Shown in pieces: positions 3,182 to 36,026 of a stretch of 36,497 nucleotides of DNA. The stretch is taken from assembly GCA_027604705.1 (NCBI GenBank), contig JADHYV010000124.1, forward strand, positions 1-36,497, given 5' to 3'. Origin of the DNA: Allomyces arbusculus (lineage: Eukaryota; Blastocladiomycota; Blastocladiomycetes; Blastocladiales; Blastocladiaceae). The notes below the pieces were generated by a model, which ran no database searches, was not told the origin of the DNA, and worked only from the letters and a program-made list of their open reading frames with translations. Each line of letters opens with the position of its first letter. The first letter of the stretch is position 1. The position numbers and the translations under genes were made by a program.

Positions 3182-6073
3182 TCACTTGCGCAAAAAGTAC
3201 TTGTTGAGCAAGTGCACCAGGCGCGCGACATTGATGCGCAAGAAGGTCAAATCGAGCGTCAATTCCCCACCCTGCTGCTTTTCGAGCAAATCGTCGAGCC
3301 GCAAATCCATTTCGAGCAACGGTCGGTCGCGGCCCTTGTATTCGAGCGAGATCAAAAAGCAGCCGGGCGACGGACACATGATGCTCATGGAAATGTGCGG
3401 CCGCCTGGCCTCTGGGATACTCGACTCGGTGATGACGCCGTCGCGCTCGAGGAACGCGTACGAAAAGGCGCGCGACGTGGGCACGTGCTGCGACGCCGCG
3501 AGGACGGCCGACGAGATGACCGATGCCGACGCGCCGGGGGTCGCCGACAGGGCCAGGTCCGACATGACGGATGTGCCGAGCCCATAGGACATGCCCGCCC
3601 CACCAGCACCGTACGACATCCCCGCCCCGCCATAAGACGTGCCGTAAAACCCCGGGTACGTCGTGCCTGTAATCGCCGACGGCGACGGTGACGAGTTCGC
3701 GCGCGACCGATTCCCGCCCGACATAATCGACGGTGCCGGACTCGACGCATTCGTTGCTGGCGACTTGGCCCCCTCGGAACTGGCCTTTTTCTTCCCAAAC
3801 GAGGGTCCCGGGCTCTTGGCTGTCTTCATGCGCACATTGGCCAGGTAGGCCTTGTACGTCTCGAGCTGCGCGTTCAAGTACTCGTTGTGTTCGCCAATCG
3901 CGCGATACACGTCCTCGAGCGACTCGATTTCCTTGCTCAGCTTGTCGCGCAACGAACCAAGGTGCGCAAGTTCGGCAGCGATTTCGTCGGCGAGAATGCG
4001 GTACCCGTCGCGCCGCGACACGACGCCGAGCCGCTCAAGTTCGAGGACCATGGCGCGGGCGCGCGCGGCTTGTTGCACGACGCCGTCGTCGCTGCGCAGG
4101 GTCATACCCGCGTGTGTCACGGCCATAAGATCGAGTGCCGGTGCGGCGGGCGTCGGCGTGGATGTGCTGCTATTGCTCGCGGCATCGTCGTCATGGCCAT
4201 TCGCGGCGGTGGAAATATCGCCGTTGGCTCGTGGTGGAAGTGGTGGGACGGGTGGGATCGAAGACGGCCGTCCGCGGACACTTGGGGGTGGTGGCGCCGC
4301 GAGCGACGGCACGCGACGTAGTAGCTGCACGAATGCGGCCTTGGTCTCGAGGTAGAGCGCTTCGGACGCCGACACGTCGGTCGAGTTCTTGATGAGTTCG
4401 CTCGAGTCGGGCAAGTGTGTTTCCCACCGCGAGTAGAGCGTGAGCGTGTAAGTAGCGTTTTCAGCGCGCGGTAACGCTGCCGGTGCGGGCCCCAAGTCCT
4501 TGAGCAATGCAGCGAGATGCGACTCGGGCTGGCACACCGTGTCGCGGTGCTTGGCGAGCAGCGCGTGGGTGGCATACATTTCGTTGGCCGAGATATTGAT
4601 GCGCAGCTGGTCGCGCCGCGAGAGTGCCAGGTACTGGTTGAGCTCGAGCTCCTCGTAAAAATCGCCCACGTCTGCGAGCTTGAGCAAGAAACGCTGCACG
4701 CGGTCTTTGTTACGCTCCGACCAGGCATTGAGCGGGGCCATGTAGGCCTCCTTGGTCTGCGACGGCTTGTTGGCCACGTTCTGCAACATCTTGGCAATCA
4801 GCGTGAGCGTGCGTCGCGGGTTCGTCGACGGCGCCGAGGGCACGAGCATAAACCCTTGAGGCGTGACAATCGCCGGGTTGATATACCGCAACAGGAAAAA
4901 CCCGCCAACCAGCGAACACAGCTGCGTGTCGGTCGCCTCAGGGTACTTGCGCTTGGCGAGCCCTTTGATCTGCTTGCAGATCCAGCGAATACCATAGGGC
5001 ACGCGGTCAAGCGAGTCGACAATAGTCTTGAGGAAAGAGGTTGCGATTTCAAGCAGCATGCGCACGCGCGCCTGCACGAGCTGCTGCACCTGCGGGATTT
5101 GCGCAACTTGGTCGGCTGGTAAACTCGACGCCGTGGCCAAGGACCGAGAGTCTCCGGTCGACTCGAGAATCTGCTGGTAAACCTTGACCGGGTTGATTTC
5201 CAGGTTCAGATCCTTGTGCTTAATGAGTGACGCGATGCGCTCTGACAGCAGCGACTTCAAGTAGGCCTGCCCGGGGCCACGGCGCGTGTAGGTCGTGAGC
5301 ATGCGGGAGACGGGCGTGTTGGCGCGCATCAACGACCCGAAGTCAGTCGCATGATCAAACTGGTGCGCGAGCACCGTCTGGAACATGGTCAGGAGCAGGT
5401 ACTCTTCGCGGCGGTCATACTGCTTGCCGTAGACAGTGAACATGACCGTTTGCAAGAGAGCGTCCATTTGATCGAGCGTGCACACGCGGCACAGTGTGGC
5501 GAGGTAGCGCGGTTCCGTCTGCAGCAGGAAAAACAGGTTGCCGTAGAGCTGCAGTTTACGGTCGTCGAGTCGTGCGGGGCCCTGCGCGCTATCGTCGTCG
5601 TCGCCCTGAAGCACGTGCGCGAGATCCTTGGCGTCTTTGTCGTCCAGTTGCATGCGGTTTTGGATGAGCAGAGCGATACGCGAGTCGAGCAGCCGCACGT
5701 CGCGCTCAAGCACAAAGTTCTTCTTGGACTGCGTCGAAATGAGCTCCTTGAGCTGCGTGAGCCGTTTTTGAGCTGTTCAATGATTGTATCGCGTTGGGGT
5801 CAGTCTCAAAAATGAAGGACACGCGCTTCTCATCTCCACTAGCATCAAGAGCGCCATACCTTTAGCCAGCTCATCGTCGACAGCGAGTTCTTGCTCGGCT
5901 CTTGCCGCGAGAAAATGCGCGTAAGAGATGCGACGCGCGCCGTACGTTGCCGATGCGGGGAGAGCCGTTGCGAGTGCCGCCATCGAGTACGGTGCGGTCC
6001 CTTCCGTTGCGGCGCCGACCGCAGGGGGTGGCGACATGACCGGTCCTGCTGGTGCGCTCGTGGTCATGGCCAT
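3182..6073 (-). CDS. IQGAP-type Ras GTPase-activating protein (RasGAP + RasGAP C-terminal domain)
   Basis: Two exons, 6073-5860 and 5772-3182, joined in phase 1 across an 87-nt intron (donor GTATGG, CTGAC branch, CAG acceptor), give 934 aa. The start MAMTTSAPAG sits in an ideal CCACCATGG context. After a coiled-coil-like region, a RasGAP domain spans about residues 190-450. It includes LMRANTPVSRM, where Arg ~221 occupies the arginine-finger position, and the FLR-type block FFLLRYINPAIV. A RasGAP_C domain fills roughly residues 630-934, interrupted by a Gly/Ser/Tyr-rich low-complexity insert (SYGGAGMSYG type). There is no CH domain or IQ motif, so it resembles fission-yeast Gap1/Sar1 or Dictyostelium GapA more than true IQGAPs. 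Known role of the family: switching off Ras by stimulating GTP hydrolysis, or scaffolding Rac/Cdc42 at the cortex. The conserved Arg favours catalytic activity (inference). Confidence 0.88.
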
Positions 6074-11704: not shown

Positions 11705-13277
11705 CTACAGCTGCGCCGACGACGATTGCGACGACGCGGCCTGCTGCTGCGCATGGAACGCGGCAATCTTCTCCTCGATCGCCGGGCGGAAATGCCGAAT
11801 CAGACCCTGCACGGGCCACGCCGCGGCATCACCCAGAGCGCAGATCGTGTGGCCCTCAATCTGCTTGGACAGCTCGTAGATCATGTCGATTTCCACGTTC
11901 TTGGCGTTACCCTGCTGGAACCGATCCATCATGTTCTTGAGCCACGTGGTGCCCTCGCGGCACGGCGTGCACTGGCCACACGACTCGTGCTTGTAGAAGG
12001 ACGACAACCGCGCAATCGCGGCCACAATGTCGGTCGACTTGTCCATGACAATGACGGCGGCGGTACCGAGACCCGACTGCGCGTCCTTGAGCGCGTCAAA
12101 GTCCATGAGCACGTCGTCGCAAATGTGCTTGGGCAGCACGGGCACCGACGACCCACCAGGGATAATCCCGAGTAGGTTATCCCACCCGCCACGGACGCCG
12201 CCGCAGTGCTTCTCAATCAGCTCGCGCAGCGGGATCGACATTTCCTCCTCGACCGTGCACGGCTGGTTAACGTGGCCCGAGATACAGAACAGCTTGGTCC
12301 CTTGGTTCCGGGGGCGCCCAAACGACGCGAACCAGGCCCCACCGCGGCGCAGGATCGTCGGCGCAACGGCCACGGTCTCGACGTTCGACACGGTCGTCGG
12401 GCACCCAAACAGGCCGACATCGGCCGGGAACGGCGGCTTGAGCCGGGGCTTCCCCTGCTTGCCCTCGATCGACTCGATCAGCGCCGTCTCTTCGCCGCAA
12501 ATGTAGGCGCCGGCGCCGCGGTGGATGTAGACGTCAAAGTCGTACCCGGACCCGCACGCGTTCTTACCAATCAGGCCGGCCGCATAGGCCTCATTGATGG
12601 CCGTTTGCAGGTTCGAGGCCTCGTTGTAGAACTCGCCGCGAATGTAGATGTAGGCGGCCGACGCGCCCATGGCACGGCCCGCGACCAGGCAGCCCTCGAC
12701 GAGCTTGTGCGGGTCAGAGCGCATGATCTCGCGGTCCTTGCAGGTGCCAGGCTCGCCCTCATCGGCGTTGACGACGAGGTACTTGGGGCTAGACAGTGGT
12801 ATCAAGAGTGAGCGGATTGCCGCTGCGATCAGTGAAAAGAAAGAAGAGCTAACGACATACCGGCCGTCCGAGGGCTTGTTCATAAACGACCACTTAAGCC
12901 CCGTCGGGAACCCGGCCCCACCACGACCACGCAGGCCCGAGGCCTTCATTTCCTCGAGAATCCACTCGTGGCCCTTGAGCAAGATCTCCTTGGTCTTGTA
13001 CCAGTCGCCACGCTTCATGGCGCCCTTGAGCTTCCAATCGTGGAACCCGTAGAGGTTGGTGAAGATGCGGTCGCTGTCCTTGAGGTTGCCGTAGGCGCGC
13101 GGCGCCGGCGCGGCCTCGGTGACGGTGGCAAGCGCGCGCGCTAGATTGGAAAGGCCGTTAGCCGCAGTTCGTCGGGCGGTACTGGCAGCACGAGGGGCGC
13201 AGGGCAGGCGTACCCTGCACGCCGCGGCGGGCGTGGGCGGCAGCGGCGACGCGGCCGATGCGCGAGACGGACTGCAT
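11705..13277 (-). CDS. NDUFV1: NADH:ubiquinone oxidoreductase 51 kDa subunit (complex I, FMN/NADH-binding)
   Basis: Exons 13277-13214, 13140-12861 and 12788-11705, with phases matching, give 475 aa, typical for this subunit. Residues 1-25 ([19 protein letters not shown]...) are an Arg/Ala-rich mitochondrial presequence split by the first intron, which has a consensus CTAAC branch. Hallmarks in order: [18 protein letters not shown] (FMN), [40 protein letters not shown] (NADH site), and near the C-terminus [11 protein letters not shown] plus HTICALGD, whose cysteines bind cluster N3. It sits at the tip of the matrix arm, takes the hydride from NADH and passes electrons to the Fe-S chain. It is divergent from the UBZ4 gene. 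Everything looks canonical. Confidence 0.96.
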
Positions 13278-13750
13278 CGTGGTGAACGGTCTAAATGCGG
13301 TTCCCGTTCGAAGTGGTGTAGGTTGGTACCTCGCGTCGTCGAGAAAGCGGCAACGATCCGACCCGAGCTGAAGTTGCAGGGCCGACTGGGTGCTTTATAG
13401 CGAGCACAAGGTCGGCGCGGCGCGTTGCAGCAAGTGCCGAGGCGTGTCAAGTTGATCGTTACCTCAGCGTCGACGGTCCAAGGCACGACGGGATCGCGGC
13501 CTTCGTGCAGCGCGATCAACAGCGTTGCCCATCTCGAGCCGCTTGCTCCAGGGCGGGCACAGACCGCGAGCGCAAGGCCATTTCGGATAACATGAGCCCA
13601 CGTGCGTCTCGTTCAAATCGGTCACCGCGCCGTTCAAACCAGGTCCGACCGGTGCGCGCGATCCCGTTTCTTCGCTGCCAACCGCGACCCCACGCCGCGC
13701 GACTACCCGCACTGGATTCCCACCGAGCTCCTGTACCCAATGATATCAGA
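13278..13750. promoter_or_regulatory. Divergent promoter region, NDUFV1 / UBZ4 gene
   Basis: Start-to-start spacing is about 470 bp. The plus-strand frame of the UBZ4 gene stays open back to about 13505, and another frame over 13600-13750 is also protein-like. Part of this stretch could therefore be a 5' exon I failed to assign. No factor site is recognised. Confidence 0.35.
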
Positions 13751-14714: not shown

Positions 14715-16781
14715 CTACACCTTCCTCCCGACCCCCGGCGCCGCAACCGCCGCACCCGCGCCCTTCCCACCTCTCGCCGCATCCCCAGCCTCTGCCCTTG
14801 CCGCAACCAGCGTCACAAACGCCATGATCCACCGCAAATCCGACGTGAGACACTTGCACGCGCGCACCCATGCGTCCGACGACGTGCGTGGCCGAATCGA
14901 GTACCCGCCGACCTTATCCTTGTCGATCGGGTAAGGCATATTGAACTCGACCGGGTCCATGGCGGCGCAGTACTCGGCCAATTGCTTGACGCACGCGAGC
15001 AGCGCCTCGAGCCCTTGCTCGAATTTCGAGTTCAACAGGAGCCGGTTCAGGGTCGTGAATTCGCCCGGGCCGCCGTGCAGGTCGTAGGTCGCGTAGACGA
15101 CCCACTGCTGTCCCGCAGGATCGGTTGTAGATGCGGTGGATCCGCGCCGCGCCGAGGCGGCGTCCGATGGCACGACGCGCCGTGAACTGCGCGACGAACT
15201 GGACGAAGACGACGACGCGCCATTCGCTGGCGCCGGCACGAGTTTCTGAATCTTCGAGAACGACCCCATCGGCAGTAATCGGTACCCAACAAACTCGACC
15301 TTGGCCTTCCGCGCCAGCGCATCCACCATCAGACACACTTGTCCAAACGCCGCGTTCATTTCGTGCCACGGCACTGGCGGCGCGCCGTTCCCGCTGACTC
15401 CACGGCCGAGCCGGAGGCCATTGATCGTCGGGTATGTCCCGTCGTGTCCGAGCCGCGCGACATCATTATACACGTTGGTGCGCTTGAGTTTATCGAGATG
15501 CCGGGACGCCGCATCGTATTTGGTATTCAGTGCGTCTCGCTCGGCCTGGTACGCCTGCAGCGACGCCTGGAACGCGTGCGACGCGTGCCAGAAGTCGCGT
15601 TCCGCCGCATCGAGTGCCGCGGCGTCGGCGGCCAAGTCGGCGAGGGTGGACTCGAGCGCAGTTTCCTCGGCTTCGGCCGCGGCAAGTTGCGCGGCGAGGT
15701 CGGCCTCGAGCGCGAGCAGTCCGGCCAGGTCGTCGTCGGTATCCGCGGACGTGGTTGAAGGTGGCAGAAATTGCTGGTAGCAGCGTAGTTCTTCTTCGAG
15801 GTCTGCGAGGTCTGCGTGCAGCCGGTCAGCCAGAACCGTAGCGCAGTCGCTGCACAGTGGGAGCGGGACGTTCGAGTTGGTCGCGAGCGCGTGCAGCCGC
15901 TCAATGGTCGCAACGCGGGCGGACATGCGGGATTGTAAAGTGCCGCCGGCCGATGAGGTGGCGGATGCGACCATGCTCAGACTGGTCGCGGGCGGCGGTG
16001 GAGGTGGCGGTGGGGGTGGTGGCGGGACGGATGCGGGCGAGGGCGATGTCCCGGCGGGTGGTGGTGGCGTCGGATCGGATGACGACGACGGAGTCGCAGC
16101 GGTCGGCGGGATCAATGGCGGCGTACTTGCCGATGCGGCCGCGTGCAGCGCCGTAGATGCAGCATTCGCGGCGGCGCGCGCCGACGGTGAGACGAGTACA
16201 AACGACTGGTCGGGTTTCGGCAACTGTGCCGCTGGCGGCGGGATCGGGATTGGCGCCGCCACTGTACCCGCATCCCCGTGTGCTGGTGGTGGTGCGGGCG
16301 GCGTCGTCCCCGGGGTCGCGTCGATGGGCGTAATCTCGAGCGCGGCCACCACGTCCGACAAGTGCGCCACAGCATCGTCGAGTTCGGCGTCGTTGAGCCG
16401 TAGTTGGTGGTGGCACTGCGTGCACCGCAGCGCCACGGACGCGGGGCCATGGGCGGCGATACTGCCGCCGCGTGATGGTGGCGGGACGAGCAGGGTGGTC
16501 GCGCTTGCTTCGTCGCTCCAGTGCGCGGTCGAGTTGGCGGCGGACGCAGTCAGGAGCGACCCTGCAGGGGTTGGTGCCAGCGAAGAGGGGTGTGGCGCGC
16601 CCGACGCACGCATGGCCGCGGAGAGGGCGCTGGCCGGGTCCGCGGGCGAAGATGCGGCAAGTGCGGGTGGTGTTGGGGGCATGGTTGTCGCGGGTACGTC
16701 GTGCTGCAGGAGGTGCCCATCGTCGTCGTGCCGTGCCGACAACAAGACGTTGCGACGCTGGCGTGTTCGCGACGTGCTCAT
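14715..16781 (-). CDS. ATG6: Beclin 1 / Atg6 (Vps30) autophagy protein
   Basis: An uninterrupted 688-aa frame. It contains a CxxC pair near residue 120 (ALRCTQCHHQL) and a second CxxC near 310 (NSNVPLPLCSDC), matching the Beclin cysteines. A coiled coil runs from about 355 to 435 (Ala/Glu/Leu-rich). The evolutionarily conserved BARA domain follows: RTNVYND, GTYPTINGLRLGR, VPWHEMNAAFGQ, YRLLPMGSFSKIQKL and a C-terminal GGYSIR block. Atg6 is a core subunit of class III PI3-kinase complexes with Vps34 and Vps15, acting in autophagosome formation and endosomal sorting. It is much longer than human Beclin 1 (450 aa) because of low-complexity insertions: a Pro run near 253-264 and a Ser-rich run inside the BARA domain. 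The start at 16781 is the first Met of a plausible N-terminus; a later Met (residue 34) cannot be excluded. Start-to-start distance to HBS1 is 288 bp. Confidence 0.9.
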   Translation of the reverse strand: MSTSRTRQRRNVLLSARHDDDGHLLQHDVPATTMPPTPPALAASSPADPASALSAAMRASGAPHPSSLAPTPAGSLLTASAANSTAHWSDEASATTLLVPPPSRGGSIAAHGPASVALRCTQCHHQLRLNDAELDDAVAHLSDVVAALEITPIDATPGTTPPAPPPAHGDAGTVAAPIPIPPPAAQLPKPDQSFVLVSPSARAAANAASTALHAAASASTPPLIPPTAATPSSSSDPTPPPPAGTSPSPASVPPPPPPPPPPPPATSLSMVASATSSAGGTLQSRMSARVATIERLHALATNSNVPLPLCSDCATVLADRLHADLADLEEELRCYQQFLPPSTTSADTDDDLAGLLALEADLAAQLAAAEAEETALESTLADLAADAAALDAAERDFWHASHAFQASLQAYQAERDALNTKYDAASRHLDKLKRTNVYNDVARLGHDGTYPTINGLRLGRGVSGNGAPPVPWHEMNAAFGQVCLMVDALARKAKVEFVGYRLLPMGSFSKIQKLVPAPANGASSSSSSSSRSSRRVVPSDAASARRGSTASTTDPAGQQWVVYATYDLHGGPGEFTTLNRLLLNSKFEQGLEALLACVKQLAEYCAAMDPVEFNMPYPIDKDKVGGYSIRPRTSSDAWVRACKCLTSDLRWIMAFVTLVAARAEAGDAARGGKGAGAAVAAPGVGRKV

Positions 16782-17069
16782 CGCGGTCACGTCGAGTCCT
16801 GTGGTCTGCGTGCCGAAGCGTCCGAGCGCTGCTACCCTCGCTCGACCACGCGCGCCCACGTCACAAACTCGTCCCAGCGACCGCCGCACTGAACGACCGG
16901 CCGAGCACGACAACACGACCCCACACGACCACACTGATCCGCGATCTGTTGCCACATATTGCGCGCTGCAGTCCACGCCGAGGCCCGCAGCTGCCCACAT
17001 TTGCCTGCAACCGCGCCCGAACACGGCTCGCGCGCGCTCGATTGCTCCAACCGAGCTAAACCACCAACC
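16782..17069. promoter_or_regulatory. Compact bidirectional promoter, ATG6 / HBS1
   Basis: Only 288 bp separate the two divergent start codons, so transcription must start in both directions from this short stretch. No TATA element or named site was recognised. Confidence 0.45.
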
Positions 17070-20000
17070 ATGTCCCGCCACCGCGCCGTGCGCAACCTGA
17101 CGCGCGACGACTTTGACGACGATTTCGACGACGACTACGATGCCCGCCTCGTGCAGGCCATGCCCGAGTTGCGCGAGATTGTGGGCGACGACTTTGACGA
17201 CGCTGAGCTCGAGGAGACACTGCTCTACTACGACTACTCTGTCGTAAAGGCCGTGCGCTGGCTGCTTGACGGTGTCGACCCGGACGCTGAACCTGCTCCG
17301 AAACCCAAGCCGGCCGCACCCGCGCAGAAGAAGCCGGCAGCAACAACAGCACCAGCATCGACGGGTATGTCGCCCTTCCTTGCACTTTTGGTTGTTGCCT
17401 TTTCCTTCTCCCCCCCCCCCCCCCCTGGACCCGGTCGAGGATCGGCGTTGCTGCGCTGAATTGCCCGTACGTCTCTGTTCTCCCTCCTCTACCCTCGCCA
17501 TGTCCTGATCCGACGCGCGGTTGCTCACACTTGGTGCGTTCCCTGACATATAGCCCCCACGGCGGCGTCGCCTCTCGTCTCCTCCAACCTGGCCCGGTTG
17601 CTCGCGCCCAAATCGACAACCACTGCCGCCGCGGGCCCCGCGCCGCGATCGAGCTTGACCATCCCATCCGCCCTGCTTGCCGCGAAGCCCAAACCCGGTT
17701 CCGCTCCCGCTCCTGCCACCGGCACCCCAGTCGCCAGTTCCCCACTGCTCAGCGCTAGTCTCGCCAGCCTCCTACGAAAACCCCCTGCTGCACCCTCGAC
17801 CGCACCCGCGACCGGTCGCGCACCGCTCGGTGGGCTCGTGGCGCCCAAGGCATTGCACGACCGACTTGGGAGTATGCGCACAGGCTTGCCGGCGCCTTCG
17901 CGGCCGAGTAGCAGCAGCACAGCGGCGGGAGCGGGACCGCCCGTTCGGGCTGGGACCTTGGGCAAGCTCGTTCCGCGCGCGTCGATGGTCCCACGCGCAC
18001 CCGCGGCGGCACCGGCCAAGCCGGCAGTTCCCGTGGCCGCGCGTGCGGATCTGGCGCCGGTCGTGCGCCCCGCAGCACCGGCCGCGCCGGCCAAGCGCGC
18101 GACCGCGACCCCGTCGCCATTCGCGCGTGGGCTCGTGTCGGCTGTGGGGATGGGCGACTGCCTCGCGCCGATCCTCGACTGGGTCGCGCAGTACCCGGCA
18201 TGCCTCTACCCCACGTCGTCGAAATACGCGCCGTTTGCGTTTAACGTGCCGTCGCCTGACGATATTGTTCTTGCAGCGCAGGCACAAAGTAAGAACTTGA
18301 ACAAGGGGAACACGTCGGGTACGAGCAGTCCCGCCAAGTCGGCGGCGACGACGCCCAAGAAGGGTAATGGCAAGAAGGCTGGCTCCTCGAGTTCGGGCGC
18401 GACCACGATCCAGGCGCCGCTCAACGTGATGCAGGAGTTGACGGCCGGAGTCAAGGACATGCGCGTGGCCGCTGCCGCCAACTCGGCCGCCGCCTCCGGT
18501 GCCACAACCCCAGAACCCGCCGCGCCCGTTGTCTCCAAAAAACGGATCGACATTGCCGCTGAGTACGCGCAGCGTGCGGCGCACCTGAACCTGGTCATGG
18601 TCGGGCATGTGGACGCCGGCAAATCAACGCTCACGGGACACCTGCTCTACCAGGCCGGCGTCGTGGACGACCGGCAAATGCGCGCATACCACCGCGACGC
18701 GGTGAAAGCCGGCAAGGGGTCCTTCTCGTACGCGTGGGTCATGGATCAGAACGAGCAGGAGCGCGCGCGCGGTGTGACGATCGATGTCGGGGTCACGCAC
18801 TTGACGACGCCGTCGGGCCGGAAAGTCACGTTCCTCGATGCCCCCGGGCACCGCGACTTTGTTCCGAATATGATTGGTGGCGCCGCGCAGGCGGATGTCG
18901 CGGTGCTCGTCGTCGATGCGACGCCGGGGCAAGTGGAAATGGGTTTGTCCGAGGGCCAGACGCGCGAGCACTTGTTGCTTGTCAAGTCGCTTGGGATTCC
19001 GCGCATTGTCGTCGCCGTGAACAAGATGGACCATGCGATGGTCAACTGGTCGCGCGCGCACTTTGAGCGCGTGCGCACGTTGCTCGCGTCGTTTATGGCC
19101 GGGATCGGGTACAATGTCGAGTCGCACGTCGTGTTTGTTCCGACGTCGGCGCTCGCGGGCGAGAATCTCACGCAGCGACTCCCACACGGGCATGCTGCGC
19201 GCGCGTGGTACGCCGATCAGCCGTGCCTGCTGGACGTGCTCGACACGTTGCCCGTCCCGACACGGCCGATTCTAAAGCCGTTGCGCATGCTCGTCACGGA
19301 CTCGACCAAGGGCGGGATGGCGTCCGGGTCGGTGACCGTCTGGGGCCGGATCGAGCAGGGGTCCATGCAGATTGGGGATTCGGTCATGCTCATGCCGCTC
19401 GGGCAGGACGCGACCGTGCGGCACATCGAGGTCAAGGACGAGGCCGTGAAGTGGGCGGCCGCAGGGGATCATGTGATGGTGTCACTCGCTGGACCGGATC
19501 CGCAGCAGTTGTCGGCCGGGCTCGTGCTCTGCGCGCGCGACGCGCCGGTGCCGGTGACGAACCGCGTCGAGGCCAAGATCTTGGTGTTTGAGCCCAAGGT
19601 GCCGATCACGATGGGGTACCCGGTACGTTGCTCTTCTCGTGGGTGTCGCAAACGAAACTGATTCTGACCCTGGCGTGTTGTCGACATCGTGCAGGTCATT
19701 CTCCACCAGGGCACGCTCAACGAGCCGGCGTTTGTGACCAAGCTCCTCGCGATCCTCGACAAGACCGACGGGTCCGTGACCAAGAAAAACCCGCGCGTCC
19801 TGACCAAGGGCGCGACCGCCCTCGTTGAGCTCTCGCTCGACCGGCCCGTCTGCCTCGAGGCATTCTCGGACTGCAAGGAGTTTGGTCGGTTCATGCTGCG
19901 CAAAGGCGGTGAGACGATTGCCGCGGGCGTCGTCAGCAAGGTACTCTCCCTTTCGATCACGACGTGGGCGGATATGGGCATGAATGGCTAACTGTGCGTG

Positions 20001-29709: not shown

Positions 29710-30725
29710 CCGGTGCGGTGGCTTTTTTTGTCGTGGAAAAGAGGAATCCGTTTGAAATGCCCGTGATCAGGAAGTCGGTGCAAGGTGGTCAGCGAGTCGG
29801 ACTTGCCCCACGACCGCCCGCCGACACACGGCCAACATCGGGCCAACACGGGCTCGCCGCCATGTTCCGCGGCATTGTGGGCGGGTTGAGCGCCAGGGTG
29901 AATCAAAGCTGCAGCGTACACACAAAAAGCGACCTGATATACTTAGCCAACAGTGGAAGAAAGGTGGAAGGTGGCGGGAACCGCTGCGAACGTCGACAGT
30001 CCCTTCCTCGCGAGTGCGCTTCCTAGAGCGCCACCGGCGAAGTGGGCGACTGTCCATTGCCGTCGACGACAACGACAGCGACGACGACGCCATTTCTCAC
30101 CCGCGCCGCTCACAAGGATCACGGCAACTTGGTGCAGCGTGTTACCGAGCACGTCGCGCGCCGCGCACTTCCCGCAGTCGACGGTCAAGAGCAGCGCAGC
30201 GCTGCCAACCCCGCCGCGGCCGTGCGACCAGCGAACCGACCTGTTCACAACCAACCCACCAGCGAAGGACAAGCGCCGACACCAGCTGCAACCCGAATTC
30301 GACGAGCGATCCGAGCCCGCGCAGTGAATCGCGCACTGCGCGCGCGACGCGGACCAGTAACGGGCTCGTGAACAAGATATTTGAGCACCGGTGCGCGTCG
30401 GATGCCGTGTGCGCGCGCTCCACCACCGCTGCCGCCTTTGTCAGCCCAGGGTGCTTGGTGTCCGTGCGCGCAACGAGCTGACGGGCATGTTTTGCTGCTC
30501 CTAGGACTGTTCCAGCGCTGCTGCGTGTGATCGCACGACACGACCCGGCGCGTCCGACTCGGCACGACACCGAATTTCGGCCGGTTCAGCGGCCGATGGG
30601 TCCTTTCCCGACCTCCGACCTCCCGCACTCATTCCATTACCCAGCGCCGCCTACTGCGACCTTGATACCCCTGCACCCGCTGCCGCCGATCGCACCGCGC
30701 ACGTTGCGCCCGCGCACACGCCACC
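29710..30725. other. Intergenic region upstream of the PTEN-formin gene
   Basis: About 1 kb between two plus-strand genes. Overlapping open frames (e.g. 29953-30327, 30042-30371) are Arg/Ala/Thr-rich with no motif and look like chance frames in GC-rich DNA. The region probably holds the SRP receptor 3' UTR and the promoter and leader of the formin gene. A non-coding 5' exon cannot be excluded. Confidence 0.4.
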
Positions 30726-33700
30726 ATGTTCAAGTTCCCAATGCTCGGGTCGCTCTTTGGCGGGGGCGGCTCGCCGGCCCCGACCCCGCCGCCCGCATCC
30801 TCGTCGTCGACGTCGCACCTCGGCACGTTAACCCCACCGCCGGCCTTGTCCGACACGGGCGGCGGGAGCGAGGATGACGACGCGTTTCCGCAATCGACCC
30901 CACCGCCGACCCTACGTCGCTCCTCGTCGCGCATCGCCATGCTCGCATCCGCCGCACGACCCGCAATCTCAGGCCTGCTCTGGGGCGGTGGCGGTGGGAG
31001 TAATTCCGGAACAGCGTCCCCGCCGCCGCAGGCCGAGTACCACGGCCCGGTCCCGCGCGAGTGCGTGCTCGACAACGACCTGTTCTACACGTACCCGAGC
31101 TACCTGCGCGACCACCAGGCCAAGATCGACTCGTCCGTGTCGCGGCTATCGCGGCGGGTGTCCATGACGTTTCGTCGACGGACCGAAGTGGCGGAATCGG
31201 CATCGGCATCGGCGCTCTCCGCGTGGGCCGAGGCTATGGCCGCGCAAAACGCCATGGCCGCGCAGTCAGCGGTGGATAGTGCGGGGAGCGGGTCCGAGTC
31301 GTTGGCGACGGACGATGCCGCATCGATGGTCTCGCTGAGCTCGTCGTCGGCTGCGAGTACCGTCGCAATTCCCGTGCCGGGTCCGGACCCCGTGGTCCCG
31401 CCGCTCGACGACAAGGATTTCCTGCGGATTTTGACAGAACTTGATATTGCCCGAATTACTCCGCGCGTGATCGCGTGCGGTTTACCGTGGCGCAACCGGT
31501 CGGAACGCGCGTCGCAGCGGAATAACATGCACGATCTCGCGCGGTTCCTCGACTTGCGGTACAAGTCGCGGTACCTCGTCTTCAACCTCGCCGAGGCCAT
31601 CAACTACGACGTCTCCGTCTTCCACCAGCAAATCGTTCATTTTGACTTGTCGCAGGTCTCCATCAAGGCGTTGCTCGATGTGGCCCGCGCCGTGGCCTCG
31701 TGGCTTGCCATGGACTCGCGCAACGTGGCCATCGTGCACTGCCATAACGGTAAAGCACGGACGGGCCTCGCCGTCGCCTGCGTACTCGAGTACCTCGGAA
31801 TTTTCCCGTCCGCGGCCGAAGCGCTCGACTTGTTCCTGCACCGCCGGTCGCCGGGAGATACCGCGTGGGTCACGGCGACGCACCGGCGGTACGTCGCCTA
31901 CTTCCACGATGTGCTCGCACACGGCGGCGCCGTTGCCCAACCGCGCGCGCTCGCGCTGCACCGGATCATTGTGCATGCGTTGCCAATCCCCGGGCGCACA
32001 GGCGACACCGCGGACACTTCCGTGACCTACACGCCGGGTCTCGAAGTGCACACGCAGGGCAAGCTCGTCTACTACAAGGACGACGGGCAGGACCTGGAAA
32101 TGGACGAGTACGGCGTGCTTTTCAACGTGGCGGCCACGGACGGCGCCGTACCGCTGAACTCGGACGTGACGATCCGCGTTTTTTACCGCGTCCAGTCGCG
32201 CGACGCGTGCCGGTCCCAGACGGTCCTGCATTTTGCGTTCAATACGGGATTCATGGACCCGGGCGTGCACCGGATCCACCCAGAGGATATGGAGGTGGCC
32301 AGCTCGGTTACGAATGACTTGGCCATGGATTTGGTCCTGGCCTACGCGCCGGTAAGTTCGCCGCGCAATGTGCACGCGGAGTTGTCGCCGACGTCGGCGG
32401 TCTTGCCGGGAGTTGGACCGGGTGGAGCGACAGGGTTGTCGTACGCGAAACTGCTCGACCGGTCGCCGACGCGGTGGCTCGCCAAGTTATCTCAAGCGCA
32501 TTTCGTGCGCCCGCACGAGCCGCACGCGGCCGTTCTCGAGCGGCAAGGGTTCACGCGCGTCCTCGCACGGTTCGCTCTGCAGCGCGCGAACAACGATCTG
32601 CACACGGCGACCGAACTCCTCCTGCGCGACCTCGTCAAGTCGCCCGTCTATGCCGAGATTTCCGCCGAATTGAAACGGCAAGGGCAGGCGAAATTCGACG
32701 CGATCAAGCGCAAGAAAGGACTTGGGCGTACCTCCCCGTCGCCGCCACTGCGCGCGCCGTCGGTCGGCAGTGACGAAGGGACCGCGAACGACGACGACGC
32801 GACGTCGGTCGCATCGAGCATGTACGTGTCGTCGGCCGCCGCGTCGCCGATCAAGCGCGTGCAGGAATTACGTGGAGCCGGTGGGTCCCGCGCGCAGTCG
32901 CCCGCGGAAAAGCCGCTACCGCCCGTTCCGGGATCGCCGTCATTTGTCGCTGACGCCCCGGCGCGGCAGCGCGCGGATACGCTCGAGTCGGAAGTGGCCG
33001 CGCTCGTGTCGGTTGCCGAGAACGACGATAATATCTTGGGGCATATCGAGAACGTGCTCGAGGCCGCATCGCGCACGCCGTCACCGACCAAGGAGGAAGT
33101 GCCCGCCGCACCGGGGGCGGATCTGGACCCGGCCGCGTGGTCGCTGCTGAACGAAATTGAGTCGGTCCTCGCCGCGGACGAGGTGTGGTCGGCGGCACCG
33201 TCGGCGGTGCCGTCGACAGCCGCGTCGGCCGCGACGTCGCCTGTGTTGCGGCCCGCGGAGACGACGGGACCGAGCGTGATGGCGGCACACGCGCACGCGA
33301 ACGCTCATGCGCATGCACCGGAGACGAATGTGGCCCCCACGCGCCCCGCGGCGGCGTCCGGCAAGGCACCTGGGACCCCGTCGCAATCGGCATCGACGCT
33401 CTCCGCGCTGCAGCAGATCGAGCTCGCTCGCACGCCACGGCGCGACCCGCCGGCGATGCCCGTGCCCGCGGCGCCCACGGGCCAGTCGATTGCGGGCACC
33501 GCGCGGAATAAGCGGTCAGGAATCATTCTCGACCCGCAGGTGCTCTCGGACCTGTCGGCCGCGGTCGCGGCCATGGGCAAGCAGCCGTCGCAGCAAGGGA
33601 TGCGCGAGCCGACGGCGATCGTCCCGCCGCCGCCGGTGGTCGCGTCACCAGCGCCGCCGACGGTTGCTGCGGGGCCGACTGGGCCGCCACCACCACCACC

Positions 33701-36026
33701 GCCGCCGCTGCCGCCGGTTATGTCGTTTGGATCAGGTGCCGCGCCGCCACCGCCACCACCTCCACCACCGGTTATGTCGTTTGGATCGGGTCCAGCACCA
33801 CCGCCACCACCTCCCCCACCGCCAGTCATGTCGTTTGGTTCTGGTGCGGCACCGCCGCCGCCACCACCTCCACCAGTTATGTCGTTCGGTTCGGGTCCGG
33901 CCCCGCTGCCACCACCTCCCCCACCGCCAGTTATGGGTTTCGGGTCCGGTCCTCCCCCACCCCCGCCGCCGCCCCCGCCGCCCGTCATGGGCTTCGGGTC
34001 GGGCCCTCCTCCACCTCCACCACCGCCTCCCGTCATGGGTATGCGTCCAGGCGGCCCACCGCCGCCACCTCCACCACCCCCCGTCATGGGAATGCGTCCC
34101 GGCGGCCCACCGCCACCCCCACCACCACCGCCAATCGGCGGCGGCCCGCCTCCACCCCCACCACCGCCCGGCATGATCCCTCCGCCGCCGGTGCCGATGA
34201 CCCCCGCAGGTCCACCAAAGCCGCGCCTGCGCGTGAAACTGCACTGGAACGAGATCCCTGCTGGCCGTGCGCCCGTCCCGCTCGAGGAAACCGTCTGGAA
34301 CGAGGCCGACGATGACATGTCGGACGCGTCCGGGTCTGGCGGCACGACGAGTCGCGGCGAGCTCAACGGGGGTACCACGACGCCGCCGGGCAAGGTCGAT
34401 TTCAATCGATCCAAGTTCGAGGCGTTGTTTTGTGTGACGGATTCGCCGGGTAAGTCTGGGAGACCCGCGGCGAAGGGCACGGCACCGAGTAAGAAGCCGG
34501 CGGTGCAGACGGTGCTCGATATGCGGCGCGTGAATAACGTGGATATCGCATTGACCGCGCGTTACGGACGGAACCAGACGGACTTATCGTGGTTGATTGA
34601 CGCAATTACCGCGCTCGATGCCGAGAAGCTGAGTTACGAGGACGTGGCCGCGATTGCCGAAATGGTGCCGACCGACGACGAGCGCAAGTTGCTTGGTCGA
34701 TTAAGGCCGGAACAGGTCAAGGCGCTTGGACGGCCGGAAAAGTTCTTGTACGAGCTGCACCGTGTCGCCGACTTGCCGTATTACTTGTCGGCGTGGACGT
34801 TGCGCGGGACCATGATTGCCGACTTGCGCAAGCTGACGGGCGACTTCACGGCGATCGCGGAACAGTGCGAGCGGCTGCGCACGCATGCCGGGCTCAAGGT
34901 GCTCTTGCGGTCGATCTTGTCGCTCGGCAACCTCGCCAACTACGAGTACGGCCGCGCACCGGCCGCAGGGCCCGGCATGTACCGCGCGCCGCACATGCAG
35001 CACCAGCCGCAGAAGAGAGGTGCCGCCGGGTTCAAGCTAGATGCCCTACCGAAGTTGCGCGACGTCAAGTCGGGCGATGGCAAGTGGACGCTGTTGCACT
35101 ACTTGGCCGAGACTATGGCCGAGTCGGGCATGGGCTGGGTGCTCGACCTGCCCGCGGAGTTTGCGACGCTCAAGCCGCTGCGGCACGTGTCGACGGCCGA
35201 ATTGGCCGCGCAGCTCGCGAACATGAGCAACGCAATTGCCAAGGCCAAGAACGCGCGGACGTCGCAGCCTCCCTCGGCCGTGTTCGAGGAGCGCATGGCC
35301 ACGGCCGTCGCCGACGCGGACGTGGTCCTGGCCGAAGCGACGGCAGCACAGGCGAGTATGCAAGAGGCGTTTATTCGCGTCGCGCGGTACTTTGGCGAGG
35401 ACCCAGAGGCGGCCGCTAAGAACCAGTTTGCTAACGTGGTTGTCAAGTCACCCGAGGACATGTTCCAGATCCTCGACTTGTTCTTCACGTACCTCGAGAC
35501 GGCCGTGCGTGAGAACACGCAGCGCCGCGACCGCGAGCGCAAGGCCAAGGAGCGCGAGGCCGCGGCTGCACGAGCCAAGTCGGAGCCCAACTTGGCGCGC
35601 GGCAAGGGCAGTGATGCCGCCAATGGCACCGACGACAAGGACGGCACATCGCCACCAGCGCTCCGGAGGACGGCATCGACGCTCCCGCGTGGGCCATACC
35701 GCCCGCGACCTATTTCGCGGCACGGGGTTGATGCCGAGATGCTCGCGGCTGGCGCCAAGAAGTTGCGCCGCACTGAGTCGATGGTTGCCGTGCACGGCAA
35801 GGAGTACGAAGTCGCACGCACGTTGCGCACCGTATTTGAAAAGTGCCACGAGTGCTCGCTCGCCGTCGACGAATGCGACTGTCCGCCGGCCGACGCGGTG
35901 GTCTCGGTCGAGCGCAGCAATGCGATTCGCGGCAAGCGGCGCGCGGCCAACGCTGCCGCCGCTATTGCCGAGGAGAAGGAAAATGGCGGTGGCGCGGGCA
36001 GTGAGGAGCGGCCGCGGTCGGCATGA
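30726..36026 (+). CDS. PTEN-like phosphatase/C2-UBA-FH1-FH2 formin
   Basis: A single 1766-codon exon; start MFKFPMLGSLFG in a CACC ATG context. After a disordered Ser/Pro N-terminus, a PTEN-like phosphatase domain spans about 230-400: YLVFNLAEAINYDVSVF, the P-loop HCHNGKARTG with C339 and R345 in CX5R, then THRRYVAYFHDVL. A C2-type beta domain follows to about 541. Residues about 597-640 match a UBA fold (LERQGFTRVLARFALQRANN ... ATELLL). A long disordered stretch leads to FH1 at about 980-1158, with eight poly-Pro units. FH2 runs from about 1165 to 1600: LRVKLHWNEIP, VLDMRRVNNVDIAL, LGNLANYEYG, GFKLDALPKLRDVKS, TLLHYLAE. The tail has a Cys cluster (C1707, C1710, C1717, C1719). FH2 nucleates and elongates actin filaments and FH1 recruits profilin-actin. 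A PTEN/C2 module in front is the plan of plant class II formins and would bind membranes there. No GBD/FH3 (Rho-regulated) region is seen. Confidence 0.9.
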   Translation: MFKFPMLGSLFGGGGSPAPTPPPASSSSTSHLGTLTPPPALSDTGGGSEDDDAFPQSTPPPTLRRSSSRIAMLASAARPAISGLLWGGGGGSNSGTASPPPQAEYHGPVPRECVLDNDLFYTYPSYLRDHQAKIDSSVSRLSRRVSMTFRRRTEVAESASASALSAWAEAMAAQNAMAAQSAVDSAGSGSESLATDDAASMVSLSSSSAASTVAIPVPGPDPVVPPLDDKDFLRILTELDIARITPRVIACGLPWRNRSERASQRNNMHDLARFLDLRYKSRYLVFNLAEAINYDVSVFHQQIVHFDLSQVSIKALLDVARAVASWLAMDSRNVAIVHCHNGKARTGLAVACVLEYLGIFPSAAEALDLFLHRRSPGDTAWVTATHRRYVAYFHDVLAHGGAVAQPRALALHRIIVHALPIPGRTGDTADTSVTYTPGLEVHTQGKLVYYKDDGQDLEMDEYGVLFNVAATDGAVPLNSDVTIRVFYRVQSRDACRSQTVLHFAFNTGFMDPGVHRIHPEDMEVASSVTNDLAMDLVLAYAPVSSPRNVHAELSPTSAVLPGVGPGGATGLSYAKLLDRSPTRWLAKLSQAHFVRPHEPHAAVLERQGFTRVLARFALQRANNDLHTATELLLRDLVKSPVYAEISAELKRQGQAKFDAIKRKKGLGRTSPSPPLRAPSVGSDEGTANDDDATSVASSMYVSSAAASPIKRVQELRGAGGSRAQSPAEKPLPPVPGSPSFVADAPARQRADTLESEVAALVSVAENDDNILGHIENVLEAASRTPSPTKEEVPAAPGADLDPAAWSLLNEIESVLAADEVWSAAPSAVPSTAASAATSPVLRPAETTGPSVMAAHAHANAHAHAPETNVAPTRPAAASGKAPGTPSQSASTLSALQQIELARTPRRDPPAMPVPAAPTGQSIAGTARNKRSGIILDPQVLSDLSAAVAAMGKQPSQQGMREPTAIVPPPPVVASPAPPTVAAGPTGPPPPPPPPLPPVMSFGSGAAPPPPPPPPPVMSFGSGPAPPPPPPPPPVMSFGSGAAPPPPPPPPVMSFGSGPAPLPPPPPPPVMGFGSGPPPPPPPPPPPVMGFGSGPPPPPPPPPVMGMRPGGPPPPPPPPPVMGMRPGGPPPPPPPPPIGGGPPPPPPPPGMIPPPPVPMTPAGPPKPRLRVKLHWNEIPAGRAPVPLEETVWNEADDDMSDASGSGGTTSRGELNGGTTTPPGKVDFNRSKFEALFCVTDSPGKSGRPAAKGTAPSKKPAVQTVLDMRRVNNVDIALTARYGRNQTDLSWLIDAITALDAEKLSYEDVAAIAEMVPTDDERKLLGRLRPEQVKALGRPEKFLYELHRVADLPYYLSAWTLRGTMIADLRKLTGDFTAIAEQCERLRTHAGLKVLLRSILSLGNLANYEYGRAPAAGPGMYRAPHMQHQPQKRGAAGFKLDALPKLRDVKSGDGKWTLLHYLAETMAESGMGWVLDLPAEFATLKPLRHVSTAELAAQLANMSNAIAKAKNARTSQPPSAVFEERMATAVADADVVLAEATAAQASMQEAFIRVARYFGEDPEAAAKNQFANVVVKSPEDMFQILDLFFTYLETAVRENTQRRDRERKAKEREAAAARAKSEPNLARGKGSDAANGTDDKDGTSPPALRRTASTLPRGPYRPRPISRHGVDAEMLAAGAKKLRRTESMVAVHGKEYEVARTLRTVFEKCHECSLAVDECDCPPADAVVSVERSNAIRGKRRAANAAAAIAEEKENGGGAGSEERPRSA
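33672..34195 (+). repeat. FH1-coding tandem repeat array
   Basis: Inside the formin gene, eight units alternate a short linker with 8-11 prolines. Four linkers are VMSFGSG(A/P)A, two are VMGFGSG and two are VMGMRPGG. The linker drifts in blocks from 5' to 3', so the array looks like it grew by local unit duplication. Each poly-Pro stretch is a profilin/SH3-binding site by family knowledge. Confidence 0.85.

Follow-up and report, generated by a model that had tools for sequence, protein, structure and literature searches.

A PTEN-formin frame of Allomyces arbusculus with a complete phosphatase signature and a probable UBA-like module

INTRODUCTION

The 36,497-nucleotide stretch of Allomyces arbusculus DNA analysed here (contig JADHYV010000124.1; referred to as the window) contains a long open frame in which a PTEN-like phosphatase and a C2 domain precede a formin core. 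This locus raises the question of how a fungal formin is controlled when no Rho-binding region is visible in it, and whether the phosphatase at its front is an enzyme or a relic.

Formins of a similar plan are on record. The passages of Pruyne 2017 (PMC5628938) dealing with them define 'PTEN-formins' by the order PTP-C2-FH1-FH2, report them from Spizellomyces, a microsporidian and choanoflagellates, argue that they are ancient and propose a shared origin for at least some of them. In the same passages, the Spizellomyces PTEN-formin consists of two adjacent gene models taken as one gene (FH2 clustering bootstraps of 59 and 91), the microsporidian one was recognised by PHYRE2, and a PTEN-domain tree unites the fungal and choanoflagellate with the stramenopile PTEN-formins (bootstrap 78). 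The words 'UBA', 'ubiquitin', 'catalytic' and 'active site' do not occur in the main text of that paper. As far as its relevant passages go, Grunt 2008 (PMC2386819) reported GBD/FH3 in all fungal formins studied there, and described the catalytic Arg as absent from plant and prasinophyte PTEN-formins and the signature His as absent from stramenopile ones. The proteins of all three groups were considered unlikely to be active; the differing active-site losses were used as an argument for independent origins, and the PTEN-formin fusion was suspected to have arisen twice. The PTEN domain of a moss class II formin binds PtdIns(3,5)P2, as cited in a passage of the review PMC3817587.

RESULTS

The PTEN-formin gene is a single ORF of 1766 amino acids, which occupies positions 30726–36026 of the window on the forward strand. 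An in-frame TGA lies 5' of its start, at 30663, no in-frame ATG is present between the two, and the start context, CGCCACCATGT, was judged to be good. At the local base composition, a stop-free run of 1766 codons has a chance of ∼1e-18. When the frame is divided into 18 blocks of at most 100 codons, GC3 is 0.68–0.89 in 17 of them; the outlier (0.49; codons 1001–1100) is inside FH1. The low chance of such a run, the start context and the GC3 pattern together establish that 30726–36026 is one coding frame. The regions follow each other in the order PTEN phosphatase, C2, UBA-like, FH1 and FH2, and the features are as follows.

30726..36026, forward strand: PTEN-formin gene, 1766 aa in one frame (ORF analysis, codon statistics)
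30726..31433, forward strand: N-terminal Ser/Ala/Pro-rich region, residues 1–236 (no domain recognised; lowest Pfam E 3.4)
31434..31925, forward strand: PTEN-like phosphatase (PTP) domain, about residues 237–400 (phmmer to PTEN, TPTE2, VSP and auxilin)
31644..31646, forward strand: Asp307, opposite the PTEN aspartate (PTEN alignment)
31737..31766, forward strand: catalytic loop HCHNGKARTG, residues 338–347, a complete HCX5R (PTEN alignment, sequence)
31938..32306, forward strand: PTEN-type C2 domain, residues 405–527 (Pfam PTEN_C2; the PTEN alignment extends through C2)
32526..32633, forward strand: UBA-like module, residues 601–636, profile match 607–632 with a QGF loop (Pfam UBA, E 1.2e-4; PDB match to the YBL047C UBA, E 0.25; structure test negative)
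32646..33680, forward strand: Ala/Pro/Ser-rich linker, residues 641–985 (composition; the codon bias carries on through it)
33681..34238, forward strand: FH1 region, residues 986–1171, with 10 proline runs (composition; DNA tandem repeat of ∼48–54 bases)
34239..35585, forward strand: FH2 domain, about residues 1172–1620 (Pfam, PDB matches, mDia1 alignment)
35844..35882, forward strand: C-terminal cysteine cluster CHECSLAVDECDC, residues 1707–1719, behind FH2 (sequence)

The initial annotation, which read this frame as an uninterrupted one joining PTEN/C2, a UBA-like domain, a repetitive FH1 and a full FH2, is borne out by the ORF and by Pfam and phmmer, the support for UBA being moderate. The C-terminal cysteine cluster is perhaps metal-binding; a Pfam search with the C-terminal piece (residues 1624–1766) gave no family.

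A Pfam scan assigned a family to 7 of the 20 frames of the window (RasGAP/RasGAP_C, NDUFV1, Atg6/Beclin, an elongation-factor-like GTPase of HBS1-like type, protein kinase, SRP-receptor alpha GTPase and CH domain), and a U4 spliceosomal RNA gene lies at 2480–2604 on the reverse strand (68.8 bits versus a cut-off of 46). These families and the U4 gene indicate that the window is nuclear DNA of a eukaryote. ARAGORN detected no tRNA genes in it. Among the 60 of 63 NDUFV1 matches listed, mammals (best 812 bits), a Yarrowia entry (807.5) and a Chaetomium entry (804) score so alike that animals and fungi are not separated, and plant entries reach at most 777 bits; ciliates are more distant as well. 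A fungus is compatible with these scores, and the HBS1-like and Beclin matches did not decide the matter. The RasGAP plus RasGAP_C protein (3182–5713, reverse strand), a pairing that we take to be that of the IQGAPs, is possibly another actin regulator. The frame of the Atg6/Beclin gene (14715–17549, reverse strand) opens about 500 residues ahead of the first matched region. The translation GTPase at 17598–19661 (forward strand) has an HBS1-like protein as its best match, and this match ends at residue 627 of the 710-residue chain, so its 3' end is probably located beyond an intron.

An intron of 72 bases (GTATGT..TAG, GC 0.47; 12789–12860, reverse strand) is present in frame inside the NDUFV1 frame (11705–13519), which means that open frames of this window can read through introns. 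Scanning the PTEN-formin frame for GT..AG introns with a branch site and a length divisible by three yielded no candidates. A looser scan with 15 donor hexamers, again for lengths divisible by three, gave 12 GT..AG pairs from 4 donor sites, with a GC of 0.65–0.74; none of these has a branch site or covers codon 1564. It is at this codon that the GC of a 69-base stretch reaches its minimum in the frame (0.46, level with the NDUFV1 intron), and an insertion of about 11 columns relative to mDia1 lies near it. Given this stretch and the insertion, it is still conceivable that FH2 contains a small unspliced piece.

Residues 238–581 aligned with PTEN across both the phosphatase and C2 (E 4.1e-28, phmmer against the PTEN chain of PDB, presumably human PTEN). 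At E<=0.001 the PTEN-C2 module matched 14 distinct PDB sequences, every one of them a PTEN, TPTE2, voltage-sensor phosphatase or auxilin. In the whole protein, Pfam Y_phosphatase3 scored 23.8 bits, which is above its cut-off of 22.2, while PTEN_C2 scored 25.2 bits and missed the cut-off of 27.1; it passed with 28.8 bits when the module was searched alone. An N-terminal PTP-like domain followed by C2, the mark of a PTEN-formin, is hence present. The single-sequence AlphaFold model of residues 230–690 (PTP-C2-UBA) has a pLDDT of 38.5, so the module is supported by its sequence and not by a fold. The alignment also revealed fewer basic residues than in PTEN at the position of a basic stretch that we assume to be the membrane loop of the PTEN C2 domain.

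The catalytic loop HCHNGKARTG retains His, Cys, Gly, Lys, Arg, Thr and Gly of the PTEN loop HCKAGKGRTG. Thus, the HCX5R loop (H338, C339, R345) and a candidate general acid, D307, are both present; the PTEN aspartate opposite the latter is, we presume, Asp92, its general acid. The pocket is altered. Taking the PTEN residues to be numbered Lys125, Ala126, Lys128, Gly129 and His93, the changes are Lys125 to His340, Ala126 to Asn341, Gly129 to Ala344 and His93 to Leu308, so that from the basic pocket of Lys125, Lys128 and His93 only Lys128 is retained (Lys343). Three residues found in PTEN are absent directly before Asp307, which makes this loop shorter. Owing to the altered pocket residues and the shorter loop, the PTEN-formin may act on PIP3 weakly, in a changed way or not at all. 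With the signature complete and the lipid pocket altered, phosphatase activity is possible, and we put the chance that the predicted enzyme works close to even. The domain reading of this module had been correct at first inspection; the complete active-site signature, its most testable point, had been overlooked.

The evidence for the UBA-like module depended on the length of the query. The Pfam UBA profile scored 16.6 bits with the 1766-aa protein (E 0.007), 20.3 bits with a 148-aa piece (E 5e-4) and 22.2 bits with a 61-aa piece (E 1.2e-4), below the cut-off of 22.4 in all three cases and 0.2 bits short of it in the last. With the 61-aa piece as query, Pfam listed four families at E<=1, each of them UBA or UBA-like. 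When the 148-aa piece was shuffled, none of nine sequences matched UBA and three drew some other family (E 0.07–0.15). In PDB, the 61-aa piece matched a single entry, the yeast YBL047C (Ede1) UBA (E 0.25); with the 148-aa piece, this UBA ranked second (E 1.4) after an unrelated enzyme (E 0.26). The loop reads QGF, where the usual UBA form is MGF. In a single-sequence AlphaFold model of the segment (pLDDT 86.5), helices 2 and 3 are merged into one long helix, and Foldseek returned no PDB match to this model at E<=10. Judged by its sequence, the segment is probably a UBA domain, and ubiquitin binding by it is only putative. The UBA assignment of the initial annotation was reasonable on the sequence and was not confirmed by the structure test.

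The FH1 region has 10 runs of 7–11 prolines (residues 987–1148) ahead of FH2. Its DNA is a minisatellite with units of ∼48–54 bases and multiples thereof (33684–34168, forward strand), so strains could differ in how many proline runs they have. Pfam FH2 matched with E 6e-52 (177 bits) in the whole protein and E 1.1e-53 (183 bits) in the domain alone, against a cut-off of 34.8 bits. Of distinct PDB sequences, 11 matched the FH2 piece at E<=0.001; all are formins (mDia1, FMNL3, DAAM1 or INF2), and none is a yeast formin FH2. The whole protein hit a Cdc12 construct (E 0.02), with only its FH1 stretch aligned. In mDia1, Ile1274 and Lys1448 have identical counterparts, which we take to be Ile845 and Lys994, essential for the contact with actin. 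Trp1174 and Trp1191 are presumably at the place of the conserved tryptophans that open FH2, the mDia1 alignments stopping short of both. Compared to mDia1, the PTEN-formin has two insertions, one of about 20 and the other of about 11 columns.

Drf_GBD, Drf_FH3 and DAD were not among the nine Pfam families listed for the whole protein at E up to 10, a range in which the program filters remove most matches above about 0.1. This is in agreement with the earlier remark that a Rho-binding GBD/FH3 is not visible. As no such region is seen, control of this formin must come from elsewhere: lipid, ubiquitin or both.

We then considered what is new in this architecture. The PTEN/C2 front end had been regarded as surprising in a fungus. 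The plan itself was seen correctly, but it is not a novelty, a PTEN-formin of the chytrid Spizellomyces being in print in the passages of PMC5628938; a plant-like front end in a fungus is already known. A published order PTEN-C2-UBA-FH1-FH2 was not found among the literature matches listed, from a search with most subscription journals outside its coverage, although PTP-C2-FH1-FH2 without UBA is described in those passages. In the same search, Pruyne 2017 was the single paper to turn up on PTEN-formins, and the single one that combines a formin with UBA and FH2 concerns, to go by its title, plant lipid bodies. The search found no publication on a formin with PTEN in Blastocladiomycota, and the whole words formin, formins and PTEN are absent from the portion seen of a preprint on chytrid cellularisation (PMC11974727). 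What goes beyond the published PTEN-formin passages is the UBA-like module and a full HCX5R with a PTEN-aligned aspartate.

Pattern searches for relatives gave 55 and 1 matches in viral contigs (FH2 and PTEN pieces, respectively) and 11 in bacterial and archaeal genomes (whole protein), none of them confirmed; these numbers have no bearing on rarity. The prokaryote library NCBIfam yielded no family at E<=1.

DISCUSSION

We consider it quite likely that this protein is an FH2 actin nucleator and elongator that is brought to membrane containing phosphoinositides by its PTEN-type phosphatase and C2, which take the part of a Rho-GTPase switch. This reading follows from homology and from the binding of PtdIns(3,5)P2 by the PTEN domain of the moss class II formin (cited in a passage of PMC3817587). 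By analogy with the respective families, FH2 would nucleate and elongate actin, probably as a dimer, FH1 would supply it with profilin-actin, and the phosphatase and C2 would recruit the formin to the membrane. Speculatively, given a complete-looking phosphatase site, this formin may in addition edit a lipid, or a phosphoprotein, at the site of actin building. Just as speculatively, the UBA-like module may place the formin on ubiquitinated membrane cargo or regulate it through such cargo.

A PTEN-UBA gene and a formin gene, fused in the assembly or through a splice that escaped notice, could account for the 345-residue Ala/Pro/Ser-rich linker; in-frame introns do exist in this DNA, the stretch at codon 1564 matches the NDUFV1 intron in its low GC, and a chytrid PTEN-formin was annotated as two genes (Pruyne 2017, PMC5628938, in part). 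Nevertheless, the frame is single, with codon bias steady across the linker, and the 12 GT..AG pairs are far richer in GC than the NDUFV1 intron (0.65–0.74 versus 0.47), are devoid of a branch-site match and leave codon 1564 uncovered. The same fused plan is also reported from other lineages in the passages of PMC5628938, and we regard two genes as very improbable. Transfer of a class II formin from a plant, to which the overall domain order would lend itself (PMC3817587 and PMC2386819, in part), was rejected as extremely improbable: the catalytic Arg kept here is absent from plant PTEN-formins according to the passages of PMC2386819, and the tree of Pruyne 2017 (PMC5628938), as far as it is described there, separates the two. 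Among the origins offered in the initial annotation, a PTEN-formin that is ancient and was kept is better supported by the trees in these passages than an independent origin or a transfer.

We give an even chance to the PTEN module being a dead phosphatase with a relic HCX5R, whose sole role would be to anchor the protein to the membrane, a role proposed for it in plant class II formins. The changed equivalents of Lys125, Ala126, Gly129 and His93 of PTEN and the pre-Asp loop shortened by three residues are in line with this, as is the inactivity attributed to plant, prasinophyte and stramenopile PTEN-formins in the passages of Grunt 2008 (PMC2386819); yet both residues on which that attribution relied, Arg and His, are retained here, as are the Cys and the putative general acid. 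We hold it to be less probable, though a reading to be taken seriously, that the UBA-like segment is a plain helical linker that does not bind ubiquitin: this would explain a Pfam score just under the cut-off that falls further in longer pieces, the fused helices 2 and 3, the lack of a Foldseek match at E<=10 and the QGF loop instead of the usual MGF. It does not explain why each of the four families that the 61-aa piece drew at E<=1 is UBA or UBA-like, why none of the nine shuffles matched UBA (three drew other families) or why the sole PDB match of that piece, at E 0.25, is a UBA.

A bolder reading combines all parts. One chain would be a working phosphoinositide phosphatase, a ubiquitin reader and a formin, which lands on a ubiquitin-marked membrane, alters its lipid code and grows actin there. 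We think this combination unlikely. If true, the live enzyme would be a first for a PTEN-formin relative to the papers compared here, and would point to an ancestral PTEN-formin that was active and was disabled separately in plants and stramenopiles. The complete signature in the fungal copy makes such an ancestral enzyme, linking lipid signalling to actin assembly and followed by separate losses, a testable proposition. What gives this PTEN-formin its interest is that the active-site signature is complete and that a UBA is probable, points which can each be tested directly.

Among the known systems, PTEN shares the phosphatase and C2, and the PTEN-formin differs from it in the pocket residues, the shorter pre-Asp loop and the fusion to UBA-FH1-FH2. 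With the yeast-type fungal formins Bni1, For3 and SepA it has the FH1-FH2 core in common, and GBD/FH3 is not among the families listed for it. Plant class II formins likewise have an N-terminal PTEN-like module, FH1 and FH2, and phosphoinositide binding targets the moss one to membrane, as cited in PMC3817587; in the passages of PMC2386819 and PMC3817587 describing them, UBA is not mentioned, in contrast to the UBA-like module here, and they are without the catalytic arginine (PMC2386819), whereas Arg345 and the complete signature are present in our protein. The stramenopile PTEN-formins share the PTEN module, FH2 and the Arg, and according to the same passages have lost the signature His that is found here. 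The opisthokont PTEN-formins of Spizellomyces (SPPG_06651_SPPG_06650), Encephalitozoon (Eint_101200) and Salpingoeca (PTSG_07580) have in common with it the order PTP-C2-FH1-FH2, the lack of GBD/FH3 and the opisthokont setting. Compared by description in the passages of PMC5628938, in which their active sites are not discussed and UBA is not mentioned, the protein of A. arbusculus differs from them by its UBA-like module.
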